Below, piece by piece: positions 3,234 through 9,931 of a stretch of DNA of 10,389 bases. Source of the DNA: Oscillospiraceae bacterium (GTDB taxonomy: Bacteria; Bacillota_A; Clostridia; Oscillospirales; Oscillospiraceae); NCBI GenBank assembly GCA_017411665.1, contig JAFQPT010000021.1, positions 1 to 10,389 on the forward strand, given 5' to 3'. Made by a program: the position numbers and the translations under genes. How positions within the stretch are numbered: the first letter of the stretch is position 1; every line of letters starts with the position of its first letter. Below the pieces are notes generated by a model that searched no databases, was not told where the DNA came from, and saw nothing but the letters and a program-made list of their open reading frames with translations.

Positions 3234-4577
3234 ATGGCTGGCGGAACTTTTGATAAGCTGGTCGGCAAGGTCAGACCCGGTACGTACATCAATTTTGAGA
3301 CGACGGGAACAGATATTGTTGGCAGCAGCGAACGCGGCACAGTCATTCTGCCGCTTATCAATTTTGGATATGGTCCTGCGGGAGAGTTTATCACCATCAA
3401 CAACTCTGCGCCGGACGCGAACTACAGTAAGCTCGGATACAGCGTTTACGAGACTCCCTTGCTGCTCGTAAAAGAGGCCATGAAGAACGCAAAGACCGTA
3501 ATCGTCTATATCCCAGCGCAGGGCGCGAAGGCTACGGCGACCGTGGAGAATCCCGCCATTACCGCGAAAGCGATGTACGGCGGCAGTCGCGGTAACGATC
3601 TTGCTTTCGACTGCGTCCCCAATGAAATAGGGGGCTACGATGTGAACGTCTACCTCGACAATGCGCTGGTAGAAACCCATGAGGGGCTTGCCACCATTGG
3701 CGACCTCATCGCCGTCGGCTCTGCGTGGATTGCATTCCAAGGAGATGCAGAGACGGAGCTGACTGAGTTCTCTGCTATCAGCCTTACCGGAGGCACGGAC
3801 GGCAGCGCGACCACTCAGGATATTGCTACTTTCCTTGACGCGTCAGAGGCGCAGGTGTGGAATACAATGGCATTCCCCGTGAACTCCACAGATGAGAGCG
3901 GTCTACTCGCCGCAGCAACCAGCAAAATCAAGTATCTGCGCGAGGATGTTGGCAAGTATCGCAAGCTCGTCGTCGCCAACTACGTGTGCGACTATGAGGG
4001 AGTTATAAACGTCGTGAACAGCTACAAGCTGGCAGATGGCACGGAACTCACCACCGAACAGGCGACCGCATGGGTAGCCGGAGCTGACGCAGGCGCAGAC
4101 TGCGTGACATCTAACACTTATAAAGTCGTAGAGAACGCAAGCGATATTATCGGTCTGATGTCTCACGCGGAGGCGGTTGCGGCTATCAACGCGGGCAAGT
4201 TCTTCTTCTCCTTTAACGAGAGGACGGAAGTCGCTGTCGAGTATGACATCAACTCCCTGACCACCTTTGATAACAAGGCAAAGAGTTGGCACAAGAACCG
4301 CGTACTGCGCGTGTTGGACAGCTTCGGCGAGAGATGCGTCCTGAACTTCCCCCCGAATAAGTACGACAACAACGATGTTGGTTGGGACATCATGGAGGGC
4401 ATCGGCAAGAGCATCCTCAAGATTTTCCTTGAAATGGGAGCTATCACCGAAGTGGACTACGACAACGACTTTCTCGTTGACCGCGAGAACAGCCACGGCG
4501 ACGAGACCTATTTCAACGTCGGCATCAAGCCCGTAGATAGCGCAGAAAAGCTGTTCTTCACTATTACCACAAGATAA
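3234..4577 (+). CDS. Contractile tail sheath protein, YqbK/XkdK-like
   Basis: A 447-residue sheath subunit that polymerises around the tail tube and contracts on infection. The ribosome binding site AAGGAGG (3217-3223) lies inside the preceding gene, ten bases before the ATG. The N-terminal domain begins AGGTFDKLVGKVRPGTYINFE and contains GSSERGTVILPL. The core carries the sheath-family SLTGGTDGS loop (about residues 183-191), followed by DIATFLDASEAQVWNTMAFPV. The C-terminal domain includes KSWHKNRVLRVLDSFGERC, ILKIFLEMGAITEVDYDND and FNVGIKPVDSAEKLFFTI, typical of the sheath C-terminal arm that interlocks with neighbouring subunits. XkdK is of similar length (about 466). A sheath followed directly by an XkdM-type tube gene makes the contractile tail certain in type, though contractility itself is inferred. 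No frameshift or internal stop is seen. Confidence 0.95.
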   Translation: MAGGTFDKLVGKVRPGTYINFETTGTDIVGSSERGTVILPLINFGYGPAGEFITINNSAPDANYSKLGYSVYETPLLLVKEAMKNAKTVIVYIPAQGAKATATVENPAITAKAMYGGSRGNDLAFDCVPNEIGGYDVNVYLDNALVETHEGLATIGDLIAVGSAWIAFQGDAETELTEFSAISLTGGTDGSATTQDIATFLDASEAQVWNTMAFPVNSTDESGLLAAATSKIKYLREDVGKYRKLVVANYVCDYEGVINVVNSYKLADGTELTTEQATAWVAGADAGADCVTSNTYKVVENASDIIGLMSHAEAVAAINAGKFFFSFNERTEVAVEYDINSLTTFDNKAKSWHKNRVLRVLDSFGERCVLNFPPNKYDNNDVGWDIMEGIGKSILKIFLEMGAITEVDYDNDFLVDRENSHGDETYFNVGIKPVDSAEKLFFTITTR

Positions 4578-4593
4578 CAGGAGGCAGAAAGAT

Positions 4594-5028
4594 ATGGCTA
4601 TGGAATACAACAAAAGCCCTATTTCCCTCCGTGAGGGAAAGATTTTCATTGACGGTATCGAGTGCGTCGACAGCGTGAAGTGTGAAATCAAGTACACTCC
4701 AGACGTATGGACAGGCAGACAGCTTGGAGAGCGCACTCCGAGTTCCCGTTGGCTCGGAGTGGCCATCACCGGCACTATCACTCGCAGACGCAGCACCCCG
4801 TGGCTCAAGGAGGCTATTGCTAAGTATCAGAAAAGCAAGGCAACGCCAGAATTCACTATCCAGGGCATTATGGACGATAGAAACAGCGACTACTACGCAG
4901 ATAACGGCAGCGAGACCGTGACCTGCGTGGGCTGCGTCCTCACCGGAGATCTGAATCTCATCAATCTCGACAGCGCAGGCGATGTCTTGGATGACGCAAT
5001 TTCGTTCAACGCTAAGGACATCGTTTAA
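4594..5028 (+). CDS. Tail tube protein, YqbM/XkdM-like (DUF2001)
   Basis: A 144-residue subunit of the inner tail tube, about the usual size for XkdM. AGGAGG at 4579-4584 is nine bases before the ATG at 4594; a second ATG at 4600 is possible, but its spacing is worse. Family features are the N-terminal SLREGKIFIDGIECVDSVKCEI strand-turn-strand, WTGRQLGERTPSSRWLG, AITGTITRRRSTPWLKE, the PEFTIQGIMDDRNSDYYADNG segment, and a C-terminal CVLTGDLNLINLDSAGDVLDD ending in AKDIV. The two Cys of CVGCV (about residues 109-112) are close together, with no obvious metal site around them. Sheath and tube adjacent in this order is standard for skin/PBSX-type tails. A strong RNA hairpin follows the stop and may set transcript level or stability (described separately). 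Confidence 0.92.
   Translation: MAMEYNKSPISLREGKIFIDGIECVDSVKCEIKYTPDVWTGRQLGERTPSSRWLGVAITGTITRRRSTPWLKEAIAKYQKSKATPEFTIQGIMDDRNSDYYADNGSETVTCVGCVLTGDLNLINLDSAGDVLDDAISFNAKDIV
4734..4761 (+). repeat. 9-bp perfect inverted repeat inside the tail tube gene
   Basis: CACTCCGAG at 4734-4742 is the exact reverse complement of CTCGGAGTG at 4753-4761, with a ten-base loop. The sequence is coding (RTPSSRWLGV), so codon constraint may explain part of it. An mRNA hairpin here is plausible but unproven. Confidence 0.4.
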
Positions 5029-5034
5029 ACAGGC

Positions 5035-5063
5035 GGGCCTCGTTTCCTATTGGAGCGAGGCCT
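5035..5063 (+). terminator. Strong hairpin after the tail tube gene (possible attenuator or mRNA-stabilising stem)
   Basis: The RNA can form a 12-bp stem between 5035-5046 and 5052-5063. Its core is a perfect seven-pair GGCCTCG/CGAGGCC stem, extended by G-U, U-A and C-G pairs around a five-base loop (CTATT). It starts seven bases after the tube stop codon and ends 37 bases before the chaperone start. The following bases (ACTGCATTTCTACC) lack a clean run of T, so a classical factor-independent terminator is not fully met. A partial attenuator, an RNase barrier protecting the sheath and tube transcript, or a processing site are alternatives. The position suits a step-down between abundant sheath/tube subunits and scarce chaperone and tape measure; that is inference. 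Confidence 0.5.
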
Positions 5064-5099
5064 ACTGCATTTCTACCATACCGATAAGGAGAACTGACA

Positions 5100-5561
5100 A
5101 TGGCAAGAGATTTGAAATACTTTATGCGCGACCGCGAGGAGCAAATCATCACTGTCCCCGGCCCCGCCACTTTCGTTGATGAGAACGGAGAAGTCATCGA
5201 GCTCGAAGTCCGTGTCCTCAGCAATGCGGAAATTCAGAAAATCAACAACAACTACCGCAAGCGCAGCATCGCCACTGACAAAAAGGGGCAGCCCTACATC
5301 GCCAACGGCGAAGTCGTTTACAAGACTGAAAAGGACAGCGCAAAGGCGGCACGCCATATCATCGCGGAAGCGCTTGTTTACCCCAATCTCAAGGACGAAG
5401 AGATGATGGAGTTCTACAAGTGCGTGGACTTCACCGATATGCCTCAGCTCGTATTCTCCCGCGCGGACGAATACGCACAGGTGACAAGAGCTGTATTCAC
5501 TGCCCTCGGCCTCATCGACGGAGTTCCCGATGAGGCAGTTATCGGGGAAATAAAAAACTAA
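5100..5561 (+). CDS. Tail assembly chaperone, YqbN/XkdN-like (zero-frame product)
   Basis: A 153-residue protein with AAGGAG at 5086-5091, eight bases before the ATG. It starts ARDLKYFMRDREEQIITVPGPATFVDENG. It continues with a beta region (VIELEVRVLSNAEIQKINNNYRKR) and an alpha-helical second half (KDSAKAARHIIAEALVYPNLKDEEMMEFY, then VFSRADEYAQVTRAVFTALGL), ending in GEIKN. XkdN-family proteins are the myophage counterpart of lambda gpG: they hold the tape measure and help tube subunits polymerise, and are not part of the finished virion. The final codons ATA AAA AAC form an in-phase slippery heptamer directly before the TAA, with a second in-frame stop (TAG) right after. The protein is therefore probably also made in a longer -1 form. 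The gene sits just before the tape measure, the fixed position of tail chaperones. Confidence 0.88.
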   Translation: MARDLKYFMRDREEQIITVPGPATFVDENGEVIELEVRVLSNAEIQKINNNYRKRSIATDKKGQPYIANGEVVYKTEKDSAKAARHIIAEALVYPNLKDEEMMEFYKCVDFTDMPQLVFSRADEYAQVTRAVFTALGLIDGVPDEAVIGEIKN

Positions 5562-5575
5562 TAGCCCGCACGGGC
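5552..5575 (+). promoter_or_regulatory. Candidate programmed -1 ribosomal frameshift site with short downstream hairpin
   Basis: A AAA AAC at 5552-5558 is a textbook X XXY YYZ heptamer, and it is phased correctly: zero-frame codons are ATA (5550), AAA (5553) and AAC (5556), followed by the TAA stop. Five bases downstream begins a GC stem, GCCC at 5564-5567 with GGGC at 5572-5575 around GCAC, a suitable spacing for a stimulator though the stem is short. A GGGG at 5544-5547 is too near, and not Shine-Dalgarno-like enough, to count as an upstream stimulator. Shifting by -1 opens a 61-codon frame to 5743. Confidence 0.75.
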
Positions 5576-5743
5576 AGCAACGAATATTGGGCGCACACCC
5601 TTTGGCAGCGGCACCACCTGAGAATGGAGGATTTCGCCGCCATGCCAAGACAGCGACAGCTCTTTTACATAGCGTCGGAGCTGACCGAATCGGAGCACCC
5701 GTGCAGGCTTGACACCATCAAACTGAGAGGAGGCGGAAAATAA
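5558..5743 (+). CDS. -1 frame extension of the tail assembly chaperone (GT-like second part)
   Basis: After a -1 slip at the heptamer, the frame from CTA at 5558 stays open for 61 codons to the TAA at 5741-5743. The full fusion would be 214 residues. The extension reads LIARTGSNEYWAHTLWQRHH, then LRMEDFAAMPRQRQLFYIAS and a basic C-terminal tail ending in RGGGK. The pattern of an aromatic YW helix, an L-x-MEDF-xx-MP segment and a following IAS-ELTE helix resembles the short second chaperone domains (gpT-like) fused by frameshift in many tailed phages. The only internal ATGs (5624 and 5651) have no convincing ribosome binding site, so independent translation is unlikely. It fills the gap between chaperone and tape measure completely, and its stop overlaps the tape measure start as TAATG. 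In lambda the T part binds tube subunits while G binds the tape measure; transfer of that role here is inference. Confidence 0.75.
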   Translation, partial: LIARTGSNEYWAHTLWQRHHLRMEDFAAMPRQRQLFYIASELTESEHPCRLDTIKLRGGGK

Positions 5744-8700
5744 TGGCGGCACAACTCACTGCCATTTTTGAGCTGATAGACAAAATGTCAGACAAAATGG
5801 ATGCAATTGCTACCAGCGGCAGCGGAGCCGTAGATCAATGGCAACGAGCCGAAAACGTCGCTGATTCCGCCTTTGATGCAGCAACAAAAGGCGTAGCGGG
5901 CGTGGCGCAAACAGCGCGGAGCCTCGGCGACACGCTAGAAGATACCGTACAGTCTTTTGACACAGCAGCAGATGCGACGGAGTATTGGACTGCAGCTATC
6001 GGTAATTACGACAAGTCCGCACTGGAAGCCATCTATACCACAGAGGAACTTGTGAAAATGGGCTTCAAAACGGAGGAGGCTCTCGAAGCGGAGGCTGCAG
6101 CAGCAAGGAAAGCAGAGGAAACCCTCGAAAACCTTGACAAACAGAGCGAGGAGACCAGCGACGGTCAAGAGGAGATGGGTGACAAAGGTGCGGATGCGCT
6201 GGCGCAGATCTCTAGCGCACTCGCAGCGGCAGGCATTGTTGAGGGCTTGCAGGAAATCGCGCAGGCTGCTTACGACCTCGCGGACAGCTTTACAGAGGCA
6301 GAGAAAGTAATCATCGGCGCAACGGGCGCGACCGGGAAAGAGCTTGATTCGCTGATGGAAAGCGCAACGACCGTGTTCGCGGATTCCCATGCGGAGAACC
6401 TTTACGACGTTGCCGCTGGTATGGCGGCAGTACAAAAGGCGACGGGCCTCGCCGGGGATGAGCTTGAGGCAGCAACGAACGCGGGCCTCGCGCTGAACGA
6501 CGTGCTCGGCTACGAGGTATCGCAGACGGCACGAACGGCAAGCTCCCTGATGAAGAACTTTGGCATCTCGGCAGAGGAAGCATACAACATCATCACGGTC
6601 GGCGCACAGAGCGGAGCCGATAAGAACGGCGACCTGCTCGACGTGCTCAACGAATACGCAGCGCATTACTCCGCGCTCGGCCTCTCCGCAGATGAGTTCT
6701 TAATCAGCCTGATAAACGGCGCGGAGGCTGGCGTGTTCTCGGTCGATAAGGTCGGCGATGCCGTCAAGGAGTTCAACATCAGAGCGAAAGACGGCAGCGA
6801 AACCAGCGCGGAGGCGTTTGAAAGCCTCGGAATGAACGCGGAGGAAATGACCGCTCGCTTTGCGGCGGGCAGCGATACCGCAAGCGCAGCATTTTTCGAG
6901 GTCGTTTCGGCACTGAACGCGATGGACGACCCGATACAGAAAAACGCAGCAGCCGTCGGTCTGTTCGGCACGATGTATGAAGACCTTGAGGCCAATATCC
7001 TCCCCGTGCTCAACAGCGTGGAGGGCGGGACACTTGACGTAAACAATGCGCTCAAGACCGTCACGGAGGAAGCGAAATCGCTGAATGATAACTGGCAGGA
7101 AGCAAGCAACTCCGTCTCCACCGCATTTACAAGCGCGGTGGAACCGGCGGTAAGCGGACTGTCTAACGGAGTGGCAGGCGTGGTGAAAAGCGTCGGCGAC
7201 TTCCTACAGGAACACCCCGCCGTCACAAAGGCGATTACAGCCATCGGCGTTGGACTTGCGGCGGTAGTCATTGGCATTACCGGCGTAGTGTTCGTGACGC
7301 AGGTAGCGATACCGGCGGTCACAGCCTTTGGCGTGGCACTGAACGCTGCACTCGGCCCGATTGGATGGGTAGCACTTGCGGTCACCGGCGTAGTAGCCGC
7401 CGTGGGTGCGCTGATAGCCCTTTTCCAAGAGGAGGAAACCGAATACGACACGTGGACGGCGACCACAAAGGCGCAGTATGACGCGCTGCAAGACCTCAAT
7501 TCCGAGTACGAGGAGGCTTGCGACACATACGGAGAGACAAGCGAGGAAGCACTACGGCTCAAGTACGAGATGGACGAACTGAACGCCTCTTTTGAGGCGA
7601 ACAAAATGACCGTCGAGGAGTTTGTCGAGCAGTGCAACGCGCTTGTTGAAAGTCATAATGAGCTCGCGCAGGGCTATGCGGAGAACACGGCAGCAATCCG
7701 AGAGGAAGAAGTCGGCTCCCTCGCCCTCATCCAAAAGCTCGAAGATTTGGCAACGTCGACGGAGCAGACAGCAGCGACGCAGATGCAGATGCAGAGCATC
7801 GTCGACACGCTCAACGAAAAGTACCCCGACCTTGCACTCAGCATCGCGGATGTCACGGAGAACACCGACGCGATGGTGGAATCCCTTAAAAAGGCCGCTG
7901 AGGAGCAGGCAAAGCAGGAACAGTACCAAGAGAGCTACGATACCTACGTGCAGCTCTTGAAAGAACAGGCACTACTCGAAGAACAGATAGCAGCCGCGAC
8001 CGAAAACGTCCGCCTCGAACAAGAGAGGATGGACGGCATGAGCGGATGGGATCACTTTTGGTCTGCCGGAGAGTGGGACGACCTCGAATCCTACGAGACC
8101 GCGCTCGCCGACCTCGAAGCGGCACTCGCGGAAAACCAGCAGATGCAGCAGGAATGCGAAAGCACCATGCAGGAATACGCGGACGCAACAGCGGAGGCGG
8201 CAGAGGCCACCGTCAGCTACGAGGATGCGGTCAGCGACGCTATTTCCTCCGTGCAAGAGGAGATGGATGAGCTGTGCGCAGCCTACGACGAAGCCTACGA
8301 AGCGGCACGCAGCAGCATTGACGGGCAAATCGGTCTGTTCGACACGATGGCTACGGAGACGGAAACATCCATCACGGATATGCAGAACGCTTTCCAGAGC
8401 CAAATCGACTATTTGAACACGTACACCGAAAACCTCCGCAAGGCTGCGGATTACGGGCTCGACGAGGGCTTGATAGCATCCTTGTCCGACGGCAGTGAGG
8501 AAAGCGCAGGTTATCTGAATGCCATCATTGAGAACATCGAGCAGCTTGGCGATTCCAGCGCAGAGGCGCAGCAATTCGTCGATGACTTCAACACCTCGTT
8601 CCAAGAGGTCGAGCGGGCAAAGGACGAATTTGCGACGACCGTTGCAACGATGGAGACCGATTTTGATGCAAAGATGGCAGAGATCGAGGGACGGCTCGAC

Positions 8701-9276
8701 GAAGCAATCGATAACATGAGCATGGAGGAAGAGGCAGCCGCAGCAGCCAAAGAAACGATGGCGGCATACACACAGGCCATCAGAGACGGCACTGCGAACG
8801 CGGTCAGTGCGGCAGAGAGTGCAGCAGCGGCAGTTGCGGCGGCACTTAACACCTCCTACGCCGGCGGCGTGACTACGACCGTCGCAGGATACGCATCTGG
8901 TACAACAAACGCTGAGGACGTGTTCGTCGCAGGAGAAGACGGACCAGAGCTCATCGTCGGAGCGGGCGGAAGCACCGTGTTCCCGGCGGATGAAACCAAT
9001 CGCATCATCAAGGCTGTTACCGGGGAACGCGGAGGCACATATACACCTCCCGGCGGTTACGGCGTTGACAATGTTGAGACCGAAACCAGCGGTGGCGGAG
9101 AGACCACGAAAAAGGTGGTGCTTGCCATCGAGGGCAAAGGCAACATCGAATTGACAGGTGGAAAGGCAGACGAAGAATCGCTACTTGAGTTCCTCTACGA
9201 ATACCTCAAGCCGGTGTTGTCCCAAATCCTCACACAGGAGATATTTGAGGAGGGAGACATGAGCTATGAATACTAA
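5743..9276 (+). CDS. Tail tape measure protein (TP901-type, YqbO/XkdO-like)
   Basis: A 1177-residue protein that sets tail length and is ejected with the DNA. AGGAGG at 5728-5733 is nine bases before the ATG, which overlaps the preceding -1-frame stop. Residues 1-185 are helical and acidic. Residues about 190-425 form the TP901-type core (IIGATGATGKELDSLMESA, then MAAVQKATGLAGDELEAATN, then MKNFGISAEEAYNIITVGAQ). Residues about 496-561 are strongly hydrophobic (GVGLAAVVIGITGVVFV and WVALAVTGVVAAVGALIALF), two or three likely membrane-inserting segments. Residues about 565-1030 are long acidic coiled-coil stretches. Near 1050-1089 is the ASGTTNAEDVFVAGEDGPEL segment common near tape measure C-termini. 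No peptidase or lysozyme motif is visible. At the usual 0.15 nm per residue, the tail would be about 175 nm. Its last 11 bases overlap the next gene. Confidence 0.95.
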   Translation: MAAQLTAIFELIDKMSDKMDAIATSGSGAVDQWQRAENVADSAFDAATKGVAGVAQTARSLGDTLEDTVQSFDTAADATEYWTAAIGNYDKSALEAIYTTEELVKMGFKTEEALEAEAAAARKAEETLENLDKQSEETSDGQEEMGDKGADALAQISSALAAAGIVEGLQEIAQAAYDLADSFTEAEKVIIGATGATGKELDSLMESATTVFADSHAENLYDVAAGMAAVQKATGLAGDELEAATNAGLALNDVLGYEVSQTARTASSLMKNFGISAEEAYNIITVGAQSGADKNGDLLDVLNEYAAHYSALGLSADEFLISLINGAEAGVFSVDKVGDAVKEFNIRAKDGSETSAEAFESLGMNAEEMTARFAAGSDTASAAFFEVVSALNAMDDPIQKNAAAVGLFGTMYEDLEANILPVLNSVEGGTLDVNNALKTVTEEAKSLNDNWQEASNSVSTAFTSAVEPAVSGLSNGVAGVVKSVGDFLQEHPAVTKAITAIGVGLAAVVIGITGVVFVTQVAIPAVTAFGVALNAALGPIGWVALAVTGVVAAVGALIALFQEEETEYDTWTATTKAQYDALQDLNSEYEEACDTYGETSEEALRLKYEMDELNASFEANKMTVEEFVEQCNALVESHNELAQGYAENTAAIREEEVGSLALIQKLEDLATSTEQTAATQMQMQSIVDTLNEKYPDLALSIADVTENTDAMVESLKKAAEEQAKQEQYQESYDTYVQLLKEQALLEEQIAAATENVRLEQERMDGMSGWDHFWSAGEWDDLESYETALADLEAALAENQQMQQECESTMQEYADATAEAAEATVSYEDAVSDAISSVQEEMDELCAAYDEAYEAARSSIDGQIGLFDTMATETETSITDMQNAFQSQIDYLNTYTENLRKAADYGLDEGLIASLSDGSEESAGYLNAIIENIEQLGDSSAEAQQFVDDFNTSFQEVERAKDEFATTVATMETDFDAKMAEIEGRLDEAIDNMSMEEEAAAAAKETMAAYTQAIRDGTANAVSAAESAAAAVAAALNTSYAGGVTTTVAGYASGTTNAEDVFVAGEDGPELIVGAGGSTVFPADETNRIIKAVTGERGGTYTPPGGYGVDNVETETSGGGETTKKVVLAIEGKGNIELTGGKADEESLLEFLYEYLKPVLSQILTQEIFEEGDMSYEY

Positions 9277-9931
9277 ATACCAAATGTGGCTGACGCATAA
9301 TGCAGAGGCTGAAAAGCTCCGCATCCCCGTACTTCCTGAAAAGTTTGGCGTTAGTATCGGAAGCAAAAATTCCACTGTTGACGTGGTGGGCTTGGGTGAG
9401 ATTGTTATAAAGCAATCTCGTCCGGCCTACCAATTTTCTTTTAGCAGTTTCTTTCCGGCGCAGAGCTTCCCGGGCCTGATGGTGAGCAGCATCACGCCGC
9501 CTCTCGATTGCGTGGAGAAAATCAAGAGCTGGATAGAGAGTGACAAGCCCATACATTTGATTATTACGGACGTGGATGTAGATGTTTACTGCACGATCGA
9601 GAAGTTTAGCTACTACGAGCAAGGTGGAGATGTCGGAACCATCTATTACGATATGACCGTTAAAGAGTACAGAGAAGTTACGGTGAGAAAGGTCACGGTA
9701 GATACGCCTACAGCGACAGCGACCATCGAGAAGACCGAGACGCGCGTAGACAACACCACCACACCTCAGACCTACACGGTCAAAAACGGTGATTGCTTGT
9801 GGAATATCGCAAAAAAATTCTATGGGAATGGCGCTAAGTATACGGTGATTTACAATGCGAACAAGAACGTAATCGGGAACAATCCAAATCTGATTTACGC
9901 AGGGCAAGTGCTGGCGATCCCAGAGGCATAA
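9266..9931 (+). CDS. LysM-domain baseplate/hub protein, YqbP/XkdP-like
   Basis: A 221-residue protein starting inside the end of the tape measure gene (overlap 9266-9276), behind a purine-rich GAGGAGGGAG at 9247-9256. The N-terminal domain, residues 1-143, has the XkdP pattern: MNTKYQMWLTHNAEAEKLRI, PVLPEKFGV, GLGEIVIKQSRPAYQFSFSSFFP, and WIESDKPIHLIITDVDVDVYCTIEKFSYYEQGGD followed by YYDMTVKEYREV. A Thr-rich linker (about 144-169) leads to one LysM domain at residues 170-220 (YTVKNGDCLWNIAKKFYGNG, then YNANKNVIGNNPNLIYAGQVLAIP). LysM domains bind peptidoglycan or, in T4 gp53-like baseplate proteins, join hub and wedge. In this family the protein sits at the tube tip next to the hub. No catalytic wall-hydrolase motif is visible. 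Confidence 0.9.
   Translation: MNTKYQMWLTHNAEAEKLRIPVLPEKFGVSIGSKNSTVDVVGLGEIVIKQSRPAYQFSFSSFFPAQSFPGLMVSSITPPLDCVEKIKSWIESDKPIHLIITDVDVDVYCTIEKFSYYEQGGDVGTIYYDMTVKEYREVTVRKVTVDTPTATATIEKTETRVDNTTTPQTYTVKNGDCLWNIAKKFYGNGAKYTVIYNANKNVIGNNPNLIYAGQVLAIPEA

Follow-up and report, generated by a model that had tools for sequence, protein, structure and literature searches.

A putative programmed −1 ribosomal frameshift site pinned to the xkdN stop codon in contractile-tail phages and prophages of Bacillota

Introduction

The tail-chaperone frameshift of phage lambda, which yields gpG and gpGT, was reportedly recognized as conserved by Xu, Hendrix, and Duda in 2004. It is described as broadly conserved among long-tailed phages such as P2; lambda G is held to coat the tape measure protein and GT to recruit the tube protein, and the archaeal virus HCTV-2 is listed as using the slippery heptamer A_AAA_AAC (PMC5009743). 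The contractile phage G is also credited with a frameshifted tail chaperone (PMC8570332), Paenibacillus phage Dragolir possibly uses A_AAA_AAC (PMC6003738), and a supplementary list of frameshift clusters accompanies PMC3711429. Within the SEA-PHAGES set, the reported distance from slip site to stop averages 26 nt (PMC10885494). Work in Escherichia coli ranks A_AAA_AAC low (PMC4066793), and the A6C frameshift of IS1 insA-insB′ is given as a low-rate −1 fusion of about 2% (PMC12428005, PMC4066793).

Here, we analyze a 10,389-nt stretch of DNA (the window; contig JAFQPT010000021.1 of an Oscillospiraceae bacterium), in which a contractile-tail phage module forms part of a 1.63-Mb assembly. As in lambda, a chaperone gene precedes the tape measure gene, a −1 slip is predicted near the chaperone 3′ end, and the extension domain is short. 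Unlike lambda gpG/gpGT, the chaperone belongs to the XkdN family of PBSX-type contractile tails, in which A_AAA_AAC is used almost exclusively, and the site lies 0 or 3 nt from the stop, compared with the mean of 26 nt reported for the SEA-PHAGES set (PMC10885494). Our search of CC-licensed literature returned no description of an XkdN frameshift; an earlier mention, for example for PBSX-type phages, is possible.

Results

The xkdN locus and its slippery site

The module reads from a sheath gene (3234-4577), upstream of the tube gene, through an XkdM-like tail tube protein (4594..5028; PF09393, phrog_365) and xkdN (5100..5561; 153 aa plus stop) to the tail tape measure protein (5743..9276; PF10145, phrog_1272), the last three on the + strand. 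The chaperone matches the PF08890 Phage_TAC_5 (XkdN) profile at 52.1 bits against a cut-off of 27, and its gene sits between tube and tape measure genes, as those of G/GT-type chaperones do. A chaperone-like fold is supported by the XkdN model, which matches YqbN (3KLU); the HK97 tail assembly chaperone (2OB9) is a weaker match. Further downstream, an open reading frame (ORF) at 9266-9931 overlaps the tape measure end by 11 bases, has phrog_380 (labelled endolysin) as its best PHROG match, and contains, well ahead of its stop, an A_AAA_AAA in phase at 9811.

The zero frame of xkdN ends ATA (5550-5552), AAA (5553-5555), AAC (5556-5558), TAA (5559-5561), so that the + strand heptamer A AAA AAC (5552..5558) stands in the phase X_XXY_YYZ, with AAA AAC as P- and A-site codons and the stop adjoining it (N=0). 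These codons, and their position directly before the chaperone stop, had been pointed out in the initial annotation and are borne out, as are the predicted product lengths of 153 and 214 residues. No second A_AAA_AAC was found among 12 + strand ORFs checked (the ORF ending at 2506 was left out).

After a TGA at 5531-5533, the −1 frame opens at 5534. Translated from 5558, it gives the 61-residue extension LIARTGSNEYWAHTLWQRHHLRMEDFAAMPRQRQLFYIASELTESEHPCRLDTIKLRGGGK (5558..5743, + strand), whose TAA at 5741-5743 shares its last A with the first base of the tape measure ATG (5743). The uninterrupted −1 frame over 5558-5743 with no usable start, also seen in the initial annotation, is confirmed, as ATG, GTG, and TTG are absent from the overlap and from the first 10 codons beyond it; the first in-frame ATG, at 5624, corresponds to residue 23. 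On the basis of the comparisons below, we consider the end of xkdN to be a programmed −1 ribosomal frameshift site giving chaperones of 153 and 214 aa, with a probability of about 0.93.

The signal across the XkdN family

To determine how the site is distributed, we surveyed viral contigs, bacterial genomes, and phage records. Searching viral contigs with XkdN retrieved 14 loci and searching genome contigs one more (L001-L003 and L006-L007 include copies; L011 lacks the 3′ end). Among the close loci with a 3′ end, 13 of 14 close with AAA AAC and an immediately adjoining stop, the other (L015) with AAA AAA TAA. A profile search of viral contigs found 83 loci, of which 80 were kept; after L080, which has no stop, was dropped, all 79 carried A_AAA_AAC, at N=0 in 55 and at N=3, with one sense codon between heptamer and stop, in 24. 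The PF08890 search covered 391 genomes of the class (51 matched) and 398 of the phylum (51 matched); five places below the cut-off were dropped (three per search, one of them common to both), and two contig-edge places above it from the phylum search (G709) were left out. The 128 genome places above the cut-off, besides the window, comprised A_AAA_AAC at N=0 (101) and N=3 (14), A_AAA_AAA (7), A_AAA_AAT (1), A_AAA_AAG (1), and four places with no near-stop site (L142, L180, L230, and L236). Fifteen further phage records had the site at N=0 in 13 and N=3 in 1, Streptococcus phage EJ-1 being the exception. For PBSX-like phages, the xkdN end of PBP180 was inspected. A_AAA_AAC also occurs at N=0 or 3 in Jimmer1, MissE2, Javan336, and KC5a, four later records outside the census below, and at N=3 in Dulem virus 37, the one relative recovered by tblastn of phage records with the window XkdN and extension.

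Searches centered on the window itself were narrower in yield. Its XkdN found only its own locus in 103 genomes of its family, plasmids gave no near match to positions 4400-6200, and Rfam gave no match at gathering score.

Viral contigs, genome loci, and phage records were merged at 80% identity into a census of 158 representatives, 37 near the window and 121 far, in which EJ-1, itself without a site, also represents the similar MismyG, which has one. A site was present in 154 of the 158: A_AAA_AAC in 146, A_AAA_AAA in 6, and AAT and AAG variants in one each. It lay at N=0 in 136 and N=3 in 18, followed by TAA (101), TGA (45), or TAG (8). The heptamer, which the initial annotation had taken for a less usual choice, is instead what sampled members of the XkdN family use as a rule; its place on the last sense codon reflects a family trait, with 0 or 3 nt to the stop in 154/158. 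The prediction that heptamer and open −1 frame would recur in relatives withstood this attempt at refutation, both being kept.

The four representatives without a near-stop signal are L142, L180, L236, and EJ-1. L142 alone carries A_AAA_AAG at a distance from the stop (54 nt), nearer the spacing reported for other tail chaperones. In EJ-1 (L160, 1001-1597), XkdN and extension form one continuous ORF of 198 aa; the very similar MismyG (L165) keeps the two-frame form, so that EJ-1 represents either a natural fusion or a sequencing difference.

Selection on the slippery signal

The last codon, where it encodes Asn, is AAC in 146 of 147 representatives, whereas the same ORFs elsewhere use AAC 433 and AAT 482 times. 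The codon before AAA AAN (n = 154) is GCA in 97, ATA in 23, GTA in 21, CTA in 7, AAA in 5, and TCA in 1, against background shares for GCA, ATA, GTA, and CTA in their sets of 29, 22, 25, and 8% (CTA within CTN only); this bias, unlike that for Asn, arises partly by construction, loci without that A having been counted as site-less. As a control, we examined the remaining stop-to-stop ORFs of 100 codons or more on the + strand of the 37 near loci: none of these 385 ends with A_AAA_AAN 0 or 3 nt before the stop, while all 37 XkdN ORFs do. Judged from these codon comparisons, the slippery signal is selected as RNA.

Alternatively, the shift could arise in RNA polymerase, by transcriptional slippage on the A run. 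Such slippage is plausible at seven genome loci (5/158 representatives), where a nine-A run, GTT/ATT AAA AAA AAA TAG/TAA, occurs. The run in the window, as in most relatives, comprises only six A before a C, and six-A runs are shorter than those usually held to slip in transcription. Selection further keeps the final C and the distance to the stop, and far relatives have a downstream stem-loop. We therefore reject polymerase slippage for the window, where we judge it very unlikely, and retain it for the nine-A loci. These loci, in which the run replaces A_AAA_AAC at the XkdN end, are L175, L177, L179, L185, L186, L224, and L229.

Coding and conservation of the −1 extension

Among 220 loci with a site, copies included, all 217 complete extensions are 47-82 aa long; the remaining three run off the contig. 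Synonymous-biased change in the −1 frame, anticipated in the initial annotation, was detected at a pN/pS of 0.39 (666 pairs) versus 0.35 for XkdN itself, with synonymous differences near saturation (median pS 0.81). The three codon positions of the −1 frame vary at 0.36, 0.31, and 0.58, the third being most variable. Comparison by hhalign shows the near and far alignments of the extension to be homologous (probability 96.7, E 3.3e-10). That the −1 frame might be a relic or a chance open frame with no product is thus hard to reconcile with the at least 47 residues kept in 217/217 extensions, with purifying selection similar to that on XkdN, and with homology across the family; we give it a negligible probability. 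On comparison of relatives, both the signal and the −1 coding prove conserved.

The extension could also be encoded by an independent small gene that has a start of its own, or be translated by re-initiation past the xkdN stop. Truncated "hypothetical protein" ORFs are indeed called inside it, in the same frame and with the same stop, in 6 of 17 annotated records, and ATG, GTG, or TTG occurs in the overlap or the first 10 codons in 47/153 representatives. Such a codon is absent, however, from the window and from 106/153 representatives, with ATG found in only 27/153, and the conserved near-set residues L1, I2, G6, W11, and H13 lie ahead of the called starts. Independent initiation, moreover, would not prefer AAC to AAT in the preceding codon. 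Given the start-codon survey and the annotated ORFs, we reject an independent start as extremely unlikely.

The window extension is modeled as three helices (mean pLDDT 87.2). A protein database search with it found three relatives, unnamed or hypothetical. Pfam, searched with the extension alignment, gave only single weak matches to other alignment members, NCBIfam weak matches only, and a sequence search of solved structures one designed barrel (E 0.0012). Because BFVD and PDB yielded no convincing fold match, its kinship with lambda T is one of position alone, and we call the extension T-like by position.

Candidate stimulatory elements

A GC hairpin five bases downstream of the heptamer, noted at the outset, is present (GCCC-GCAC-GGGC, 4 bp, 5564..5575, + strand), and 19 nt spanning it have a folding energy of −7.4 kcal/mol (z −1.83). 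The hairpin is not conserved: of the 31 near N=0 representatives, window included, 16 form at least three of its four pairs, and it would be weak or accessory. The 52-nt region of the window folds no better than shuffles (z +0.22), and 50 nt at offset +4 reveal no strong downstream structure (z +0.56). A strong stem-loop in the window's clade was rejected, given a mean z of +0.14 at offset +4 over 37 near representatives.

For far relatives, folding was far more stable than in shuffled sequences just downstream of the heptamer: 50 nt from offset +4 gave a mean z of −2.05 (n = 116) and −1.94 at +7; values elsewhere were −0.17 (−120), −0.07 (−60), −0.54 (20), −0.31 (60), and +0.01 (110). Long stem-loops, with arms pairing extension codons, lie ~7-50 nt past the heptamer in L126, L097, L105, L109, and other far relatives, and sequences with Cys and those with Ala at residue 15 tend toward stems in registers one base apart. 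Column-wise covariation excess was weak over 45 ungapped far sequences because the stems occupy two registers. Splitting by residue 15, which left out 5 of the 45 and used registers picked after inspection, gave paired fractions of 0.784 (19 sequences) and 0.794 (21); the highest values on sliding were 0.614 and 0.534, respectively. An arm-swap control reached the value of the first class in 464/2000 and that of the second in 0/2000, which supports stem-loop covariation in one class only.

Upstream, the near clade exhibits a Shine-Dalgarno-like peak (mean −5.28 kcal/mol, 9-mers at offset −20) whose 9-mers start ~22 to 18 nt before the heptamer. In the near set, GAG outnumbers GAA 30:7 at codons −5 to −7 (background 244:209; p 0.0016, uncorrected for positions scanned), compared with 39:38 in far relatives (p 0.20); at codons −1 and −2, GAA prevails over GAG by 30:3 (near) and 111:21 (far). 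The window's own match, GAGG (5532..5535, + strand), is weak and lies roughly at the position of the stronger GAGGAGG of many clade members. We regard this near-clade signal as modest and post hoc.

Discussion

Under programmed −1 frameshifting, most ribosomes would read AAA AAC and terminate at TAA, giving the 153-aa XkdN, while a minority would shift backward by one base on A AAA AAC, re-pair onto AAA AAA, and continue CTA ATA GCC, producing XkdN plus the three-helix extension. By analogy with lambda G, the short form would coat the tape measure protein, the likely partner of XkdN; as with lambda GT, a few long forms would connect to the tail tube protein, with which the extension probably pairs, and start tube assembly. 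That slippage takes place in the cell, its rate, and these roles are what we infer. Weighing against the frameshift are the reported inefficiency of A_AAA_AAC in E. coli (PMC4066793), the window's poor downstream structure and weak Shine-Dalgarno-like match, the lack of a convincing fold match for the extension, the four site-less representatives, and the near-saturated synonymous differences. Virion mass spectrometry of the Clostridioides difficile phage phiCD508, as presented in PMC11948020, missed both the XkdN-like gp57 and the small gp58.

The locus shares with G/GT-type systems the in-phase heptamer and the conserved overlapping −1 frame. It resembles IS1 insA-insB′ in having A_AAA_AAC near the end of the first frame, but that frameshift regulates a transposase and the genes here are tail genes; the heptamer is all they have in common, and no transposase gene pair places the locus in the IS1 type.

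The host assembly encodes a tRNA-guanine transglycosylase together with tRNA-Asn GUU and tRNA-Lys UUU and CUU (30 of 43 tRNA loci examined). One might speculate that a separate tRNA-Lys CUU could lower AAG slipperiness here.

A tentative and rather unlikely idea is that frameshifting is coupled to termination, the stop codon itself being a positive element and a slow or contested stop prompting the slip. The tRNA-Asn would then sit on AAC while the stop occupies the A site (N=0) or the position immediately behind it (N=3), and the window's clade would rely on the stop and an upstream Shine-Dalgarno-like pause, not on the downstream stem-loop of distant relatives. Counting against this coupling, 18 of 154 sites lie at N=3, so that the A site need not hold a stop. 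If it were true, the long-to-short ratio would follow release-factor activity.

Frameshifted tail chaperones, in contractile tails too, and A_AAA_AAC in single phages were already known. As far as we searched, three points are new: the arrangement holds as a rule across the XkdN family, its heptamer is almost exclusively A_AAA_AAC, and the stop follows at a fixed 0 or 3 nt. Gene annotations examined do not show the frameshift. The family-wide rule suggests that xkdN and extension genes are incompletely annotated in these records and that the chaperone machine includes several short PHROG families whose function is unknown. For recoding research, the family offers a large natural series with alternative stimulators around a site that is weak by E. 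coli work, and PBSX of Bacillus subtilis 168 would allow a test of the G/GT model in a contractile tail. Collectively, a guess about one prophage becomes a family-wide rule for XkdN. In PBSX-type phages and defective prophages, all named hosts of which belong to Bacillota, a single fixed 7-base site anchored at the stop appears to yield two tail chaperones.
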